Shown: positions 1,915 to 12,966 of the stretch, piece after piece | Layout: the number at the start of each line of letters is the position of its first letter | Numbering within the stretch: the stretch's first letter is position 1 | Origin: a virus | DNA: 23,463 bases | Virus record (IMG/VR): IMGVR_UViG_3300034198_008282 | Location: 1 to 23,463 of that record | Direction: 5' to 3' (one strand) | Notes under the pieces: generated by a model | What the model saw: the letters and a program-made list of their open reading frames with translations, nothing else | Databases searched by the model: none | Told to the model about the DNA's origin: nothing | Translations under genes and position numbers: made by a program

Positions 1915-2943
1915 GTGGTAGCGGACTGGAGGCTGAACCGCCGTGAGGGGTTTGACCTGTTCTACCGGTTCCACTGCGAGAGCAACGATTGCTCCCCGGA
2001 CTTGGCGGTTGAGCGGTGGATGGCCGATGAGGGCGGGTTTGACTTTGAGAAGCGTTGCGTCATGGCACTTTTCCATGGAGCAACCTACGCTGGCCCGTGT
2101 GAGTCGATGTTCGCAGACCGGTTCCCGCGTCTCACCTCTGACGTTTCGGGGCTGGTCGCATTCTTCAACCGGGAGAAGCGGCGGCTGCTGTTCAGCCCCG
2201 ACTGCAAGTATCGCAAGATGGTTTTCCCGCGGTTCCTTGAGTCGGTCGGGCAGTCGGTCGCGGCATACGGCACGCTGGGCAAGTTCATCACGGATTGCTT
2301 TGGCTCCGCGGACCCCAAGGTGAACTATCTGCGGCTCAAGGCTCAATGCCAGTCCGTCTGGTACCACTGGGGCAGGATGGGGCACTGGTGTTTCTCTGAG
2401 GCGTTGGCGCGGCTGGTGGACGCCCCGATAGAGGCGGCTGACATGGAGTTCAGCGACGGGGCCAGCCACCGGGCCGGGTGGGCTTTCTGCATCGGGCGCG
2501 ATGACCTGACGGGTGATCGCGTCTCCGCCGCGGACGTCCGGATGCTTGAGCGGACGGCCGCGGAGTACCTGAGCGGTCTTGACTTCCCGCGGGCTGACCG
2601 GTTCACTCTTGAAACCGCATGCTGCAACTACAAAAGGCAGCACCGCGGGAGTCGGTACGGCGGCTGCTACATTGACGAGCAGTACGCTGAGACGGTCCAG
2701 ATGATGACCGACTGGCCTGAGTACGGATGGCTTTGGGAGAAGTACCTTGAGGGGCGGCTGGCGGTGCTTCCGCGGTCGCTGCTGTTTGAGTTGAGCGGGG
2801 AGAAGCCTCCCGCATATCGCAAGGACTGGAACCGGTCGATGCAGAAGTACGGCCGGATGCCGCGGGTTGAGGCTTGGGCGTCCGGGGAGGCCCAACGCTG
2901 GTGCAAACTGGAGGACGTTTGTGGACGCCAAGCAAGTCAATAA
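1915..2943 (+). CDS. 5-hmdU DNA kinase helical / aGPT-Pplase-type hypermodification protein
   Basis: 342 residues, predicted mostly helical. I recognise the pattern of the phage family annotated as 5-hmdU DNA kinase helical domain or alpha-glutamyl/putrescinyl thymine pyrophosphorylase: RREGFDLFYRFH (about 9-20), the helix with ALFHGATYAGP (51-61), DGASHRAGWAFCIGRDD (181-197), ETACCNYKRQ (233-242) and GGCYIDEQ (249-256). Family members act on 5-hydroxymethylpyrimidine-containing DNA, in steps after base phosphorylation that attach an amine or amino acid; which step this protein performs is not settled by sequence. GTG 1915 is preferred: GGGAGA ends four bases upstream. An upstream in-frame GTG at 1873 lies inside the dispersed repeat with an SD too close to use. 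It is sandwiched between a base oxidase and a P-loop kinase, which supports the role. Confidence 0.72.
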   Translation: MVADWRLNRREGFDLFYRFHCESNDCSPDLAVERWMADEGGFDFEKRCVMALFHGATYAGPCESMFADRFPRLTSDVSGLVAFFNREKRRLLFSPDCKYRKMVFPRFLESVGQSVAAYGTLGKFITDCFGSADPKVNYLRLKAQCQSVWYHWGRMGHWCFSEALARLVDAPIEAADMEFSDGASHRAGWAFCIGRDDLTGDRVSAADVRMLERTAAEYLSGLDFPRADRFTLETACCNYKRQHRGSRYGGCYIDEQYAETVQMMTDWPEYGWLWEKYLEGRLAVLPRSLLFELSGEKPPAYRKDWNRSMQKYGRMPRVEAWASGEAQRWCKLEDVCGRQASQ

Positions 2944-4000
2944 GTTCATCGCCCAATACGCCAAGGGCTACCAAGGCGGTCAGTTTGCCGCACCGCTGCC
3001 CAAGGAGTTGGAGGCCAATCCGGGTGCCGTGCTGGAGGCGGAGGGGTTTGTTGCGATCCGCAAGACGCTGCCGCGGGGTTCCTCCCGCAAGGACTTCACC
3101 GGGCGGGCGTACAAACTCCCGCCGGGGGCGTCCGTCCTGACTCACGTTGCCCGGGAGCCGGGTGCCGCGCTTCCCCGCTGGGTTGGGCATTACAACTACG
3201 TCTACACCTACGTTGAGGACGGTGAGTTGTCTGACCAGATGCGTCAGGCCGGTTGGAAGGTCAAGGCATACCGCGTCTCCGCCACGAGTGAAATCATGGC
3301 TTGCTGGTGCCGCGCGGAGGAGCCGCCGCTGCCGATCAGCGTGGCGGACTTGAGGACGTTCACCCGCCTGAACATTCCCGTGCCCGTCGCTGCGTTTGAG
3401 GCGGAGTTGGCATCGGTGGACTGCTGGCACGATGACTTCCCCTATTACTCTGACGGAACGTGGTCAGCCGTGTCGATACGGGGCTACAAGCAGGATGACC
3501 CAAGGTGGGGCGTGAAGCCGTCAGAGATGCCGCAGAAGTGGCGTGACGAGCATCCTGATGACCTCAACCTGAAGTGCGACTGGACCGTGCTTGCAAGCCG
3601 CACCCCCAAAATCCGCCAGTGGGTTGAGCAGACGGTCGGGGGCGGGGAAGTCGAGCGGGTCAGGCTGTTCAGGATGACCGCCCGGAAAGACAAGGACGGG
3701 AAACTGGGGCGGCACAGCGACATTCAGGATCAGGACGTTGGGACGCGGGACGGGATGCTTGCCCGTCTCCACATACCGATCAGGACTCACCCTGACATCA
3801 AGATGACCGTTTGGGACTTGGACGGCAACGAGCGTTCCGCCCATCTCGCTGCCGGGGGCGTCTACTACCTTGACACCCGAAAGCCGCACAGCGTCCAGAA
3901 CAAATCAGACGTTGACCGCGTTCATTTGGTGGTCGATTTGGTGGTCACGCCAGAGGTTCGGGTCAGGCTGATGGAGTCAGAGGAGGTGGCAGCGGGATGA
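2921..4000 (+). CDS. Asp/Asn beta-hydroxylase-like 2OG dioxygenase with unassigned N-terminal domain
   Basis: 359 residues. Residues from about 155 to 359 match the aspartyl/asparaginyl beta-hydroxylase branch of Fe(II)/2-oxoglutarate oxygenases: WHDDFPYYSDGTWSAVSIRG, then GRHSDIQDQD with H265-x-D267, RLHIPIRTHPD, YYLDTRKPHSVQN with distal H323, and R333 in DRVHLVVDL for 2-oxoglutarate. The first ~140 residues (FVAIRKTLP..., GHYNYVYTYVEDGEL, SATSEIMACWCRAEE) form a separate domain that I do not recognise. GTG 2921 is chosen because GGAGGA (2910-2915) sits five bases upstream; an in-frame ATG at 2867 lies deep inside the preceding gene. It overlaps that gene by 23 bases and its stop overlaps the kinase start (ATGA). 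It likely tailors either the modified base or a protein partner; the substrate is unknown. Confidence 0.75.
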   Translation: MDAKQVNKFIAQYAKGYQGGQFAAPLPKELEANPGAVLEAEGFVAIRKTLPRGSSRKDFTGRAYKLPPGASVLTHVAREPGAALPRWVGHYNYVYTYVEDGELSDQMRQAGWKVKAYRVSATSEIMACWCRAEEPPLPISVADLRTFTRLNIPVPVAAFEAELASVDCWHDDFPYYSDGTWSAVSIRGYKQDDPRWGVKPSEMPQKWRDEHPDDLNLKCDWTVLASRTPKIRQWVEQTVGGGEVERVRLFRMTARKDKDGKLGRHSDIQDQDVGTRDGMLARLHIPIRTHPDIKMTVWDLDGNERSAHLAAGGVYYLDTRKPHSVQNKSDVDRVHLVVDLVVTPEVRVRLMESEEVAAG

Positions 4001-4560
4001 AAACTCTCACGTACATCATCGGCCAGCCCGGGGCCGGAAAGACAACGCTGATGAACGCCATCTGCAAGGGGGCGTCAACCCTGTACACCGCGGACTCCCC
4101 GGTTTCTCACCGCGGCATGAAGGGTCCGCACGGCCTGTTCAGCGTGCTTGGCAAGGACCGGCACCCGTTCGGCGGGACGGATACGATGTCACACGCGGCC
4201 GCGGGAAACTGCGAGGCATGGGTTGAGGAGTTGTCGCGATGTGCGGCGGGCGGAGTCGTGTTTGGGGAAGGGGACAGGCTGGCCACCAAAAGGTTCCTTG
4301 CCGCTGCGCGGGTCCACTACCGCGTGCTGGTGTTCTACCTTGACCTTGACGATGCGGTTGCCGCGGAGCGGAGGGCCGTCAGGGCTGAGGAACACCGCCT
4401 GAAGCAACAGAGTGCGTCTTGGGTCAAAGGCCGCGTCACCAAGCACGCGAACTTGGCCTTGGCAGAGTCGGCCGTTAGGCTTGATGCTAGGCAGCCTGCT
4501 GAGGAGAACGCACTGCTGGTGTGGAGTGAGGTCAATGGGAAAACGCGGACCACCGCCTGA
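3997..4560 (+). CDS. P-loop nucleotide/base kinase, probable hydroxymethyl-base DNA kinase
   Basis: 187 residues. Walker A is G9-QPGAGKT near the N-terminus. A conserved GTD (60-62) follows in FGGTDTMSHAA, then VVFGEGDRLA (87-96) as the Walker B/core strand region, then LVFYLDLDDAVAAERRAVR and a basic lid QQSASWVKGRVTKH (127-140). This matches the small phage kinases that phosphorylate 5-hydroxymethyl pyrimidines in DNA so that the phosphate can be displaced later. ATG 3997 overlaps the previous stop, so translation is probably coupled. The 3' end overlaps the small terminase gene by 26 bases. A generic phage nucleotide kinase is the alternative, but the flanking hypermodification genes favour a DNA base kinase. 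Confidence 0.75.
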   Translation: MKTLTYIIGQPGAGKTTLMNAICKGASTLYTADSPVSHRGMKGPHGLFSVLGKDRHPFGGTDTMSHAAAGNCEAWVEELSRCAAGGVVFGEGDRLATKRFLAAARVHYRVLVFYLDLDDAVAAERRAVRAEEHRLKQQSASWVKGRVTKHANLALAESAVRLDARQPAEENALLVWSEVNGKTRTTA

Positions 4561-5038
4561 GCCGTCAATCCTGCGGTACATACGTGGGAACCCAAGCAAG
4601 ACTCCGCTCAACCCCGGGGAGCCAACCCCGGACTTGATGCCGCAGGGGGCGGAGCCTCCGGCTTGGCTTGAAGGCGTTGCCCTTGAGAAGTGGCACGAGA
4701 TTGTCCCGGTCTTGGCCGCGATGCGGGTGATGACCGTGGCGGACCGGGAGACGATTGCGAGGTACTGCGCCCTGTGGGAGCAGTGGAAGAAAAACTACGA
4801 CATCGTGAAACGCGGGGCGGACGTCATCATCGGCCGGGACGCGGCCGGTGAAGTCAAGTACATGCAAGTCACCCCGTATGCCAGCCAGATGACCAAGATT
4901 GCTACGCTTTTGCTCCGGATTGAGCAGGAGTTTGGCCTAACGCCAAGCAGCCGGTCTCAAGTCACAATCCACGGGAGCAGAGACGATGACCCACTTGCCA
5001 CGTTTGCCCAAAAGCGCAGCCGCGGAACAGGGGCTTGA
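4535..5038 (+). CDS. terS: Terminase small subunit, P27 family
   Basis: 167 residues beginning MGKRGPPPEPSILRYIRGNP, the usual N-terminus of P27-type small terminases (K-RGP-P-P--L-LLRGNP), followed by PPAWLEGVALEKWHEIVPVL, ADRETIARYCALWEQW and a C-terminal helix LLRIEQEFGLTPSSRSQV. It recognises phage DNA and feeds it to the large subunit. ATG 4535 starts the conserved block; longer in-frame extension upstream would run within the kinase gene and has no family similarity. It overlaps both neighbours, consistent with a tightly coupled operon that links the modification cassette to packaging. Confidence 0.9.
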   Translation: MGKRGPPPEPSILRYIRGNPSKTPLNPGEPTPDLMPQGAEPPAWLEGVALEKWHEIVPVLAAMRVMTVADRETIARYCALWEQWKKNYDIVKRGADVIIGRDAAGEVKYMQVTPYASQMTKIATLLLRIEQEFGLTPSSRSQVTIHGSRDDDPLATFAQKRSRGTGA

Positions 5039-6593
5039 GCATTACTTCAACGAGGAAAAGGCAGCCCACGTTGTCGAGTTTTTCAAGCAGTTTCTCAGGC
5101 ACTCAAAGGGGCGGTTCGCCAACAAGCCGTTCACCCTCCTCCCGTGGCAGCAGACGTTGCTTGAGGACTTGTTCGGCTGGGTGAGGGTCAGCGATGACTT
5201 GCGGCGGTTCCGGGTCGCGTACATCAGCACCGCCAAGAAGTCAGGGAAGTCAACCCTGTTGTCTGGAGTCGGGCTGTATTTGCTGACGGCTGACGGTGAG
5301 CAGTCTGCGGAAATCTACTCCGCCGCGGCTGACCGCGACCAAGCAGGCATCGTTGCCCGTGAGGCCATGAACATGGTCCGGGCGTCTCCGTCCCTTGCCC
5401 GGTCCCTTGAGGTTGTCGAGTCTCGCAAGACGATCACGCACCGCCGTTCATCATCGTTCTGGCGGGTGCTGTCCGGAGACTCATTCCGTGCTGAGGGTTT
5501 GAATATCCACGGGTTGCTGTTCGATGAGTTGCACACGCAGCGTGACCGGCGGCTTTGGGATGCCTGCCGCTACGGCGGTGCCGCCCGGGACCAGAGTTTG
5601 CTCATCAGCATCACAACCGCAGGCTATGACCGAAACTCCATTTGCTACGAGCAGTACGAATACGCCAAGGCGGTTGAGCGGGACTGGCGGCATGACCCGC
5701 AGTTCTACCCCTGCATCCACGAGACGCCCGCTGATGCGGACTGGGCAAACCCGGAGAACTGGCCCAAGGCCAACCCGTCTTGGGGAGTGACGATTGACCC
5801 CGCGGACTTTGCCGCGGACTTCCGCGAAAGCCTGCGGAGCAGCACCAAGGAAAACTCATTCCGCAGATACCGCCTCAACCAGTGGACGCAACAAGACACA
5901 CGTTGGATAAAAATGGAGGCTTGGGCGGGATGCAAAAGCCTGCCCCCGGGGCCGCTGGACGGCCGTGAGTGCTTTGTCGGTCTTGACCTTGCGACCACCT
6001 TTGACACCTCTGCGATGGTTGCCGTGTTTCCGGCGGAGGACGGGACGTTTGATGTCCTTGCCCGGTTTTGGATACCCGGTGACAACGCGATTGAGCGGGA
6101 GCGGCGGGACGGAGTGCCATACGCACTCTGGTCGAATGACCCCAAAAATGGGCTGTCCCTGACGGACGGCAACGTGACGGACTATGACGTAATCCGCCGT
6201 GATGTGGTTGCTTTCGGGCAGAAATACAACGTCCGGCAAATAGCCATTGACAGATGGAACGCCACCCAACTTGCCATCCAACTTCAAGGGGAGGGGTTCG
6301 ATGTGGTAGGGTTTTCGCAAGGCGTCGGTGCGATGTCGCCTCCAAGCAAGATGCTTGAGAACCTGATAGCCACCGGGAGGCTCCGCCATGACGGCAACTT
6401 AGTGCTGTCTTGGATGGCCTCAAACGTCTCCGTCAAGGTAGACTCCAACGACAACATCAAGCCGATCAAGCCTAAGCCGGGGTCACCTCAACGCATCGAC
6501 GGAATCGTGAGTCTGGTCATGGCACTTGGGGCGTTCACGGCCAGCCAGAAAACACAAGTGGGCACGCCAGAACCGGGCATGATTTTCATATGA
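4986..6593 (+). CDS. terL: Terminase large subunit (ATPase-nuclease)
   Basis: 535 residues, the usual length for the HK97-type large terminase. The ATPase half shows an adenine-binding region LLPWQQTLLEDLFGW (51-65), Walker A STAKKSGKST (81-90), Walker B LLFDE (D180, E181) and the coupling motif ISITTAG (208-213). The nuclease half (RNase H fold) shows D334 in FVGLDLATTFDTSAMV, D422 in AIDRWN and D505 in RIDGIVSLVMALG, a plausible metal triad. It translocates DNA into the prohead and cuts concatemers. The ATG lies inside the end of the small subunit gene, 53 bases before its stop; its own stop overlaps the portal start. Confidence 0.96.
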   Translation: MTHLPRLPKSAAAEQGLEHYFNEEKAAHVVEFFKQFLRHSKGRFANKPFTLLPWQQTLLEDLFGWVRVSDDLRRFRVAYISTAKKSGKSTLLSGVGLYLLTADGEQSAEIYSAAADRDQAGIVAREAMNMVRASPSLARSLEVVESRKTITHRRSSSFWRVLSGDSFRAEGLNIHGLLFDELHTQRDRRLWDACRYGGAARDQSLLISITTAGYDRNSICYEQYEYAKAVERDWRHDPQFYPCIHETPADADWANPENWPKANPSWGVTIDPADFAADFRESLRSSTKENSFRRYRLNQWTQQDTRWIKMEAWAGCKSLPPGPLDGRECFVGLDLATTFDTSAMVAVFPAEDGTFDVLARFWIPGDNAIERERRDGVPYALWSNDPKNGLSLTDGNVTDYDVIRRDVVAFGQKYNVRQIAIDRWNATQLAIQLQGEGFDVVGFSQGVGAMSPPSKMLENLIATGRLRHDGNLVLSWMASNVSVKVDSNDNIKPIKPKPGSPQRIDGIVSLVMALGAFTASQKTQVGTPEPGMIFI

Positions 6594-12234: not shown

Positions 12235-12966
12235 GTGCTTGTGAAGATTGGTGACACTGAGGCTGACGTCCGGGTTGAGGCCGTGATGTCCACCCCGCGG
12301 CTGGGGTTCATGGACAACTTTGCCTGCTGGATTGAGGCATTGGTGCCGCTGGGAATCCGCCCCACCAAAGTCACCGGGGCGTTTTGGGGGCAGTGCCTCC
12401 AGCGGGTCATCACGGACCGCATGGACAAGGCGGAATATATCCTCACCATCGACTACGACACATTTTTCACCAAGCAGGACGTTGAACTGCTGTTTGCGAT
12501 GGCGATGACGTTCCAGTGCGATGCCCTGACGGGGTTCCAGAGCAAGCGTGATGACGGCAGGCCGATGATCACGCTGCTGGGAACGCAGGACGCCCCGCCG
12601 GAGGAAGGCAAGTCAACGGTGCCAGCGGAGTGGTTTACCCATGCCGTTCAGGAGGTTGACGCGATTCACTTCGGGCTGACGGTCATCAGCACGGCCGCGC
12701 TGCGGAGGACGCCCAAGCCGTGGTTCATCGACGTCCCCAACAAAGATGGAGAGTTTGGGGAGGGCAGGACGGACGCGGACATGTATTTCTGGCGGGCGTT
12801 TCGGCAAGCCGGAAACCGAGTTTTCATCACCCCCCGCGTCACGCTGGGGCATGGCGAGTACAAGATTACTTGGCCCGGAAAGAACCTTGGCCCCGCCGTC
12901 CATCAAAATCCGATAGACTTCCTGAGCAGCGGAAACAAGCCGGAGGGCGCGTGGAGGGTTGAATGA
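12235..12966 (+). CDS. GT-A-fold glycosyltransferase-like protein
   Basis: 243 residues with a nucleotide-sugar transferase layout: an N-terminal strand region (VEAVMSTPRLGFMDNF), helix, then a DxD motif D73-Y-D75 in YILTIDYDTFFTKQDVELL, an acceptor-side segment AIHFGLTVISTAALRRTPKPWF (143-164), an acidic patch DGEFGEGRTDADMYFWRAF (171-189), and LGHGEY with H206. The DxD would hold a metal and nucleotide sugar. GTG 12235 has AGGAGG (12223-12228) six bases upstream, and a strong hairpin precedes it. It sits between head and connector genes, so it could glycosylate virion proteins; because the phage also appears to hydroxymethylate bases, sugar transfer to DNA is another option. Sequence alone does not decide. 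Confidence 0.75.
   Translation: MLVKIGDTEADVRVEAVMSTPRLGFMDNFACWIEALVPLGIRPTKVTGAFWGQCLQRVITDRMDKAEYILTIDYDTFFTKQDVELLFAMAMTFQCDALTGFQSKRDDGRPMITLLGTQDAPPEEGKSTVPAEWFTHAVQEVDAIHFGLTVISTAALRRTPKPWFIDVPNKDGEFGEGRTDADMYFWRAFRQAGNRVFITPRVTLGHGEYKITWPGKNLGPAVHQNPIDFLSSGNKPEGAWRVE

Follow-up and report, generated by a model that had tools for sequence, protein, structure and literature searches.

A two-domain phage oxygenase as a probable tailoring enzyme of amino acids on DNA

A virus record of 23,463 bases (IMGVR_UViG_3300034198_008282, in full the stretch analyzed here and called the window) carries at positions 2921-4000, on the + strand, a gene that joins an N-terminal domain of GNAT-like predicted fold to a 2-oxoglutarate (2OG)/Fe(II) oxygenase of the amino-acid-hydroxylase type. 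We propose that the fusion protein probably hydroxylates an amino acid attached to a base of the phage DNA, serving as a tailoring enzyme in a hypermodification pathway. We infer this substrate and this place in the pathway from gene order, protein families, predicted fold, catalytic residues, and co-occurrence. The first-pass annotation of the window had offered two targets for the oxygenase: the group added to the base, which is the reading best supported here, and a protein acting on the DNA, for which our analysis provides no support.

The C-terminal domain is a PF05118-type 2OG oxygenase. It occupies residues 145-359 (3353-3997, + strand), and residues 225-341 match Asp_Arg_Hydrox (PF05118) at 29.3 bits, above the curated cut-off of 22.6; the same family is matched by 13 of 13 members of alignment A2 (E <= 1). 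The predicted model of the full-length protein, with a mean predicted local distance difference test (pLDDT) score of 90.9, displays a double-stranded beta helix. The iron ligands H265-x-D267 (3713-3721) and H323 (3887-3889) and the 2OG-binding arginine R333 (3917-3919), all on the + strand, do not vary across the 51 aligned rows. Thus far, the first-pass annotation stands: these residues are as it gave them, and the domain is, as it claimed, a second and different 2OG-oxygenase branch next to the TET/JBP enzyme of the same operon (PF05118 versus PF12851). Its word "unrelated" applies to the Pfam families and goes too far for the fold, as both are double-stranded-beta-helix 2OG oxygenases.

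The closest relatives of the oxygenase domain are amino acid and peptide hydroxylases. By sequence, L-proline cis-4-hydroxylase comes nearest among PDB chains (E 1.3e-6 for a profile of 13 sequences, 1.6e-5 for one of 22). The best NCBIfam match is TIGR04531, "nonproteinogenic amino acid hydroxylase" (E 2.2e-5), to which the protein does not belong, its 24 bits being far short of the cut-off of 300. In the VIA fold ranking, where rows differing by at most 1 Z count as ties, the leading chains are proline 3-hydroxylase (1e5r, type II; Z 16.7), Cpz10 (7v4m; 16.5), L-proline cis-4-hydroxylase (4p7w; 15.5), and AspH (15.5). Proline hydroxylases of the 4p7w and 1e5r kind are metabolic enzymes that use free amino acids. 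They share the Asp_Arg_Hydrox-type oxygenase fold with the window protein, but have no GNAT-fold domain ahead of it, the alignment beginning at their residue 1. A second likeness is to Cpz10 (7v4m, 7v4f), an enzyme of caprazamycin biosynthesis. Specifically, R282, H284, R333, and H335 of the window protein align with R121, H123, R170, and H172 of the Cpz10 chain, and H284, R333, and H335 are identical in all 51 rows. The published work on Cpz10 assigns the role of Arg170, which lies opposite R333, and gives the target as the beta carbon of aminoacyl glycyl-uridine, that is, an amino acid on a nucleoside (PMC9814697). Cpz10 differs in being a 182-residue, oxygenase-only chain that works on a small-molecule precursor of a nucleoside antibiotic.

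The gene lies in a cassette of DNA-modification genes, all on the + strand. The order in the window is ParB-like, TET/JBP, amino acid:DNA transferase (ADDT), fusion gene, kinase, small terminase, large terminase, and portal. The cassette opens with the ParB-like gene (356-1009; phrog_620 ParB-like 7.6e-11, phrog_498 3.5e-12), followed by the TET/JBP dioxygenase, predicted to make a 5-hydroxymethyl pyrimidine (978-1856; PF12851 6.5e-25), and the ADDT-family gene (1873-2943; PF18724 3.1e-14). Downstream of the fusion gene come P-loop nucleotide kinase 3, the predicted kinase of the hydroxymethyl base (3997-4560; PF18751 4.1e-21), and the small terminase subunit, of uncertain start, with which the cassette ends (4412-5038; PF05119 5.7e-20). 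PF12851, PF18724, and PF18751 all score above their cut-offs. The fusion gene itself, delimited by its open reading frame, Pfam, and the predicted model, encodes 359 amino acids from a GTG start at 2921 to a stop codon ending at 4000. A Shine-Dalgarno-like ggagg, read from the sequence (2910-2914, + strand), stands 6 bases 5' of the GTG. The first 23 bases of the fusion gene (2921-2943) are also the last of the ADDT gene, and its final four are shared with the kinase gene (ATGA, 3997-4000), with agaggagg just 5' of the ATGA; the overlaps on both sides that had been claimed earlier are there.

These neighbors suggest a pathway. First, the TET/JBP enzyme would oxidize the methyl group of a pyrimidine in the phage DNA, most likely thymine, to a hydroxymethyl group. 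The P-loop kinase would then phosphorylate the hydroxymethyl base, and the ADDT would swap the phosphate for an amino acid, leaving the amino acid N-linked to the base. Subsequently, the 2OG/Fe(II) domain of the fusion protein would hydroxylate the DNA-bound amino acid, and the GNAT-fold domain would most likely bind the modified base or the DNA with no acyl transfer. Because the upstream gene belongs to the ADDT family, an amino acid is the probable added group. The transferase expected from the first-pass annotation was of the aGPT type; it is indeed in the same operon, as a member of the related ADDT family, and is joined there by a kinase. An amino acid N-linked to the methylene of a base is a secondary amine, like proline, and this may be why a proline-hydroxylase-type active site was recruited.

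Thymine is most likely the modified base. No C5-cytosine methyltransferase is found in any of six complete cultured phages with TET-ADDT-kinase genes (LilMcDreamy, CaiB, Reprobate, Tonitrus, Kozie, and MO526), and no thymidylate synthase/hydroxymethylase homolog is found in any of eight records (the same six phages, the window, and G001). Thus, TET would most simply oxidize thymine in place.

The N-terminal domain, about 135 residues long, very likely adopts a GNAT-like fold, as judged from predicted structure. It is annotated at residues 1-133 (2921-3319, + strand) on the basis of a separate AlphaFold2 model, Foldseek and VIA matches, and conservation. Conserved positions are Y13, G20-x-F22-A23-x-P25, R56-x-D58-(F/W)-T-G61, E124, and W129. 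The AlphaFold2 model of the isolated domain (residues 1-152) has a pLDDT of 87.4, and with it Foldseek returns GNAT folds (best E 2.4e-3). In the VIA comparison, the best match is SbzI (Z 9.2, root-mean-square deviation 3.5, 124 residues aligned) and 16 of 999 chains reach Z >= 8, values little above the level that the tool regards as common. The main argument for the fold is the consistency of the VIA list, whose best 50 rows are all GNATs or GNAT-like domains. No Pfam or PHROG family of note matches this stretch, in keeping with the first-pass description of a domain of about 140 residues that could not be assigned; the structure prediction and fold search that it called for are what yield the GNAT-like fold. 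Among Pfam profiles, no GNAT family appears at E <= 10 in 12 members or at E <= 1 in 20 members, so the GNAT assignment comes from predicted structure. A profile comparison with phage Mu Mom (hhalign probability 0.7%, 11 columns) gave no support for Mom as a relative.

Whether the domain could be an acetyltransferase turns on its cofactor site. The acetyl-coenzyme A (acetyl-CoA) pyrophosphate-binding motif of GNATs is [QR]-x-x-G-x-[GA]. The window sequence happens to have an R-x-x-G-x-A match, REPGAA, at the expected position (residues 78-83), but the motif is not conserved: it is correctly placed in three of 22 relatives, the window sequence among these, and in a sister clade described below it matches in three of 29 sequences, none at the expected place. 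In addition, helix 3 of the model is short, at five residues. Thus, while the predicted fold resembles that of GNAT acetyltransferases such as SbzI (8zt3) and NatA/Ard1, the domain differs from them in its short helix 3 and in having neither a conserved CoA-binding motif nor a recognizable sequence profile. We read it as a GNAT-derived binding domain rather than as an acetyltransferase, and our guess is that it most likely holds the modified base or the DNA instead of transferring an acyl group. Occurrence of the domain alone was considered and rejected: a scan with it gave 27 loci, and 17 of 17 new ones carry the full fusion.

The cassette recurs across phages. In the phage collection, the sole match to the fusion protein is gp4 of LilMcDreamy (two records, one Mycobacterium phage), at 42% identity over 90% of the query, named in UniProt "Aspartyl/asparaginy/proline hydroxylase domain-containing protein." The LilMcDreamy genome starts with ParB, TET, ADDT, gp4, kinase, and large terminase. 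Two neighboring annotations in this phage (L005) are likely wrong: the TET-like gene at 855-1787, for which PF12851 is below its cut-off, is annotated as queuine tRNA-ribosyltransferase, and the kinase at 3761-4333 (PF18751 1.4e-71) as terminase small subunit. The TET-like gene of Reprobate (L023, 807-1670) is likewise probably misannotated as queuine tRNA-ribosyltransferase.

Scans of viral contigs returned 4, 14, 27, and 75 loci, in overlapping sets. A first co-occurrence set combines the loci of the first two scans with the window and LilMcDreamy, leaving out the truncated L004. Here, Pfam detects ADDT in 14 of 15 records, the exception (L016) starting inside the gene, and TET in 11 of 15; the kinase is present by tblastn in 16 of 16 sources, L004 and L006 not included. 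For the N-domain scan, Pfam checks covered 12 of the 17 new loci, L037-L041 being near-copies of L036, and found ADDT in 12 of 12, kinase in 12 of 12, and TET in 11 of 12. Finally, we applied local hidden Markov models (HMMs) to 98 locus entries, some of which share a contig and which form 64 clusters at 95% identity. The window-type operon accounts for 30 clusters, with the kinase in 30, the N-domain in 27, ADDT in 26, and TET in 25. Incomplete among them are L004, L016, and L106, whose contigs begin inside a gene; L011 and L014, 4.1-kb contigs with no TET; and L076. The proposed association with a transferase gene, once checked, is confirmed for ADDT, and not aGPT proper, in those 26 of 30 clusters. 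The arrangement varies: the TET gene is placed after the kinase in L032, L033, and L045. The terminase large subunit and portal of the window match those of L001-L003, L007, and L008, as far as the contigs reach, and not those of LilMcDreamy, L009, and L010. Thus, standing beside differing packaging genes, the cassette seems to move as a unit. Two scans of genome contigs for cellular relatives (alignments A1 and A4) gave no match, though such short-peptide-pattern scans can miss distant ones, and a plasmid search gave no match.

In L010, a single open reading frame of 663 codons (2464-4452) joins TET and ADDT, a fusion that supports joint action of the two. In L076, the TET reading frame (5620-6477) runs into the hydroxylase C-domain, with the N-domain and ADDT absent, which looks like a natural deletion or an assembly join.

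In cultured phages with the same core genes, other enzymes take the place of the hydroxylase. Relatives of ADDT occur in 17 phage records, only two of which, those of LilMcDreamy, also match the fusion protein; we examined the neighborhoods of five of the other 15. Rhodococcus phage Tonitrus, with a five-gene operon (PMC11955845), and the actinophages CaiB, Reprobate, Kozie, and MO526 share with the window the order TET/JBP, ADDT/aGPT-Pplase, kinase, with ParB first where annotated. The Tonitrus operon has been termed a thymidine hypermodification system, and its kinase a 5-hmU DNA kinase (PMC11955845). These five phages differ from the window in having no hydroxylase and another gene either between ADDT and kinase or after the kinase. 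Specifically, a gene resembling flavin adenine dinucleotide (FAD)-dependent amino acid oxidases (DAO) occupies the ADDT-kinase slot in Kozie (PF01266 5.4e-20) and in MO526 (1.2e-11), both above the Pfam cut-off. Reprobate has a weaker relative in the slot (DAO 4e-4, below cut-off; PF13450 above cut-off). In CaiB and Tonitrus the slot is empty, and a gene of about 290 residues with no assigned family follows the kinase. This pattern fits the notion that slot genes encode interchangeable finishing enzymes acting after ADDT. Judged by sequence, the FAD amino-acid-oxidase-like genes are other candidates for tailoring enzymes that act on the amino acid.

A scan with the C-domain revealed that the fusion exists in a second operon type. 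The 51-row tree separates 22 window-clade rows from 29 rows of a sister clade, with branch support of 100/100. The sister clade comprises 34 clusters (locus entries L061, L069-L075, L077-L101, L103-L105, and L107). Its N-domains are homologous to that of the window clade (profile-profile probability 98.9%, E 2.9e-17) but poorly alike, such that the window-clade N-domain HMM finds 11 of the 34 clusters. In the flanks examined, HMM matches to TET, ADDT, and kinase number zero in all 34. Instead, 31 of 34 clusters have in their flanks a DNA amino-methyltransferase (PF01555-like), a pyridoxal phosphate (PLP) enzyme (PF00291, PALP), or both; ParB also belongs to this operon type. The methyltransferase occurs in 25 clusters and the PLP enzyme in 21, as counted by local HMMs, with Pfam run on 10 example proteins. 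A CPPY or SPPY motif is present in 30 of 33 methyltransferase matches, and L078, L103, and L105 have neither partner gene in their flanks. The sister clade rules out restriction of the fusion to TET/ADDT operons. The first-pass annotation had held that wide occurrence of the fusion outside modification operons would speak against its proposal, and here the outcome is mixed: the fusion is found apart from TET/ADDT operons as well, yet in 31 of 34 such clusters it keeps company with the methyltransferase and/or the PLP enzyme. Across the two contexts, the fusion is thus associated with two types of DNA-modification operon, the second an apparent one.

The PLP enzyme is compatible with amino acid chemistry, which would fit a common role of the hydroxylase in both clades. 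A broader possibility, which we put forward tentatively and hold to be somewhat doubtful, is that phages possess a family of two-domain hydroxylases, with a degenerate GNAT fold and a 2OG oxygenase, that recognizes base-attached amino acids in two chemically different systems. One would be the TET-ADDT-kinase system; the other would be an amino-methyltransferase/PLP-enzyme system that may link an exocyclic amino group to an amino acid. If so, hydroxylated amino acids would exist on two kinds of phage DNA base, neither of which is described in the literature searched.

Several sister-clade loci display unusual gene structures. Open frames in L087 and L094 unite ParB-like, methyltransferase, and hydroxylase parts. 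In L093, one open frame of 1275 codons contains ParB, part of a methyltransferase, the PLP enzyme, the N-domain, the hydroxylase, and the remainder of the methyltransferase. In L104 (4438-6519), a QueC-like PP-loop domain (PF06508, 3.3e-5) lies upstream in one frame with the hydroxylase, at a locus with three methyltransferase genes. Pseudomonas phage PfAn1 (L108, 5818-6882) encodes a small protein whose similarity to the hydroxylase of the sister clade is weak (28% over 43% of the query, E 4e-5). Its gene lies among virion genes, immediately 5' of one annotated as a putative acetyltransferase.

Hydroxylation of a DNA-linked amino acid has to be weighed against three alternatives to it and to each other. 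In one, the free amino acid is hydroxylated before ADDT loads the ready-made hydroxy amino acid onto DNA. Such a sequence of events would suit the nearest profile relative, a free L-proline hydroxylase, and the adjoining ADDT, the misses in its 26 of 30 clusters being truncated or deleted contigs. However, the conserved extra domain would then be unneeded, yet the fusion is retained in both clades, and the equally close Cpz10 fold takes a nucleoside-linked amino acid; we consider this order of steps unlikely. We give less credit to the suggestion that the enzyme acts in the manner of a second TET, carrying the oxidation of the base or of its hydroxymethyl carbon further, or that it shortens the adduct through oxidative N-dealkylation. 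While the gene does neighbor TET in a DNA-modification operon, its family and closest relatives are hydroxylases of amino acids and peptides and not nucleobase oxygenases, 25 of 30 clusters already have a TET gene, and AlkB appears only further down the Foldseek listing, at rank 40. Least probable, in our estimation, is a protein substrate, such as a host restriction factor, a ribosomal protein, or a virion protein: the fusion accompanies ADDT and kinase in phages whose packaging genes differ, and the sister clade shows a link to a DNA methyltransferase, even if the fold list includes AspH and human prolyl hydroxylases.

A further proposal, judged separately since it is compatible with any of these, is that both domains are catalytic, the GNAT-fold domain acylating the amino acid and the oxygenase hydroxylating it. 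The fold and the well-placed REPGAA speak for it; the scarcity of the motif among relatives, the five-residue helix, and the Pfam acetyltransferase profiles that match in neither the 12 nor the 20 members speak against it, and we regard it as improbable. Hydroxylation of the amino acid on DNA, the reading we prefer, faces evidence of its own to the contrary. Proteins are substrates of some of its closest-fold rows in VIA, namely AspH and, lower down, prolyl hydroxylases. We infer a DNA-linked substrate for an enzyme type whose proline hydroxylases use free amino acids, and the role given to the N-domain is a guess. Moreover, a C5-cytosine methyltransferase is present in three metagenomic cassette records (G001 and G002, two of eight; G025, one of 12), making cytosine possible there.

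Amino acid hypermodification of phage DNA is known. Hydroxymethyl-U reportedly receives an amino acid, which tailoring enzymes of the radical SAM, PLP, flavin, and acetyltransferase classes subsequently reshape. The window pathway would resemble the reported thymidine hypermodification of phages M6, ViI, and relatives (Lee et al. 2018, 2022, cited in PMC11955845) in its kinase-activated hydroxymethyl pyrimidine, the installation of an amino acid on DNA, and subsequent tailoring. It differs in that the window apparently makes the hydroxymethyl in place by TET/JBP and in that its tailoring enzyme is of the 2OG amino-acid-hydroxylase type. We found no description of a 2OG amino acid hydroxylase in such operons in the literature searched, which lacked key papers (the supplement of Iyer et al. 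2013 may list such oxygenases), nor, in the same literature, of the methyltransferase/PLP operon type around the hydroxylase. The known framework is thus probably extended by a tailoring enzyme type for which we found no description. If our proposal is correct, a hydroxylase that finishes an amino acid on DNA would mean a form of chemistry new to the field, with hydroxy amino acids carried by bases, and an additional class of tailoring enzyme. LilMcDreamy, a cultured mycobacteriophage grown on Mycobacterium smegmatis, carries the gene (gp4), so the base is readable by mass spectrometry. The reading also accounts for a hypothetical protein, corrects the annotations of its TET and kinase neighbors, and leads to the second operon type.

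Finally, we note observations on other genes. The kinase family opens many Mycobacterium phage genomes, annotated as adenylate kinase or terminase small subunit, and matches 391 phage records, compared with 17 for ADDT. In Mycobacterium phage Dingo (L110, 1-567), the kinase lies directly 5' of the large terminase, with no TET or ADDT upstream in the record. Among the structural genes of the window, 12235-12966 encodes 243 residues with no Pfam match at E <= 0.01; by eye, its product presumably resembles a glycosyltransferase. Distant from the cassette, the gene at 22412-22894 matches DUF1599, "nucleotide modification associated domain 1," at 24.6 bits against a cut-off of 25, and may be part of the nucleotide metabolism of the same phage.

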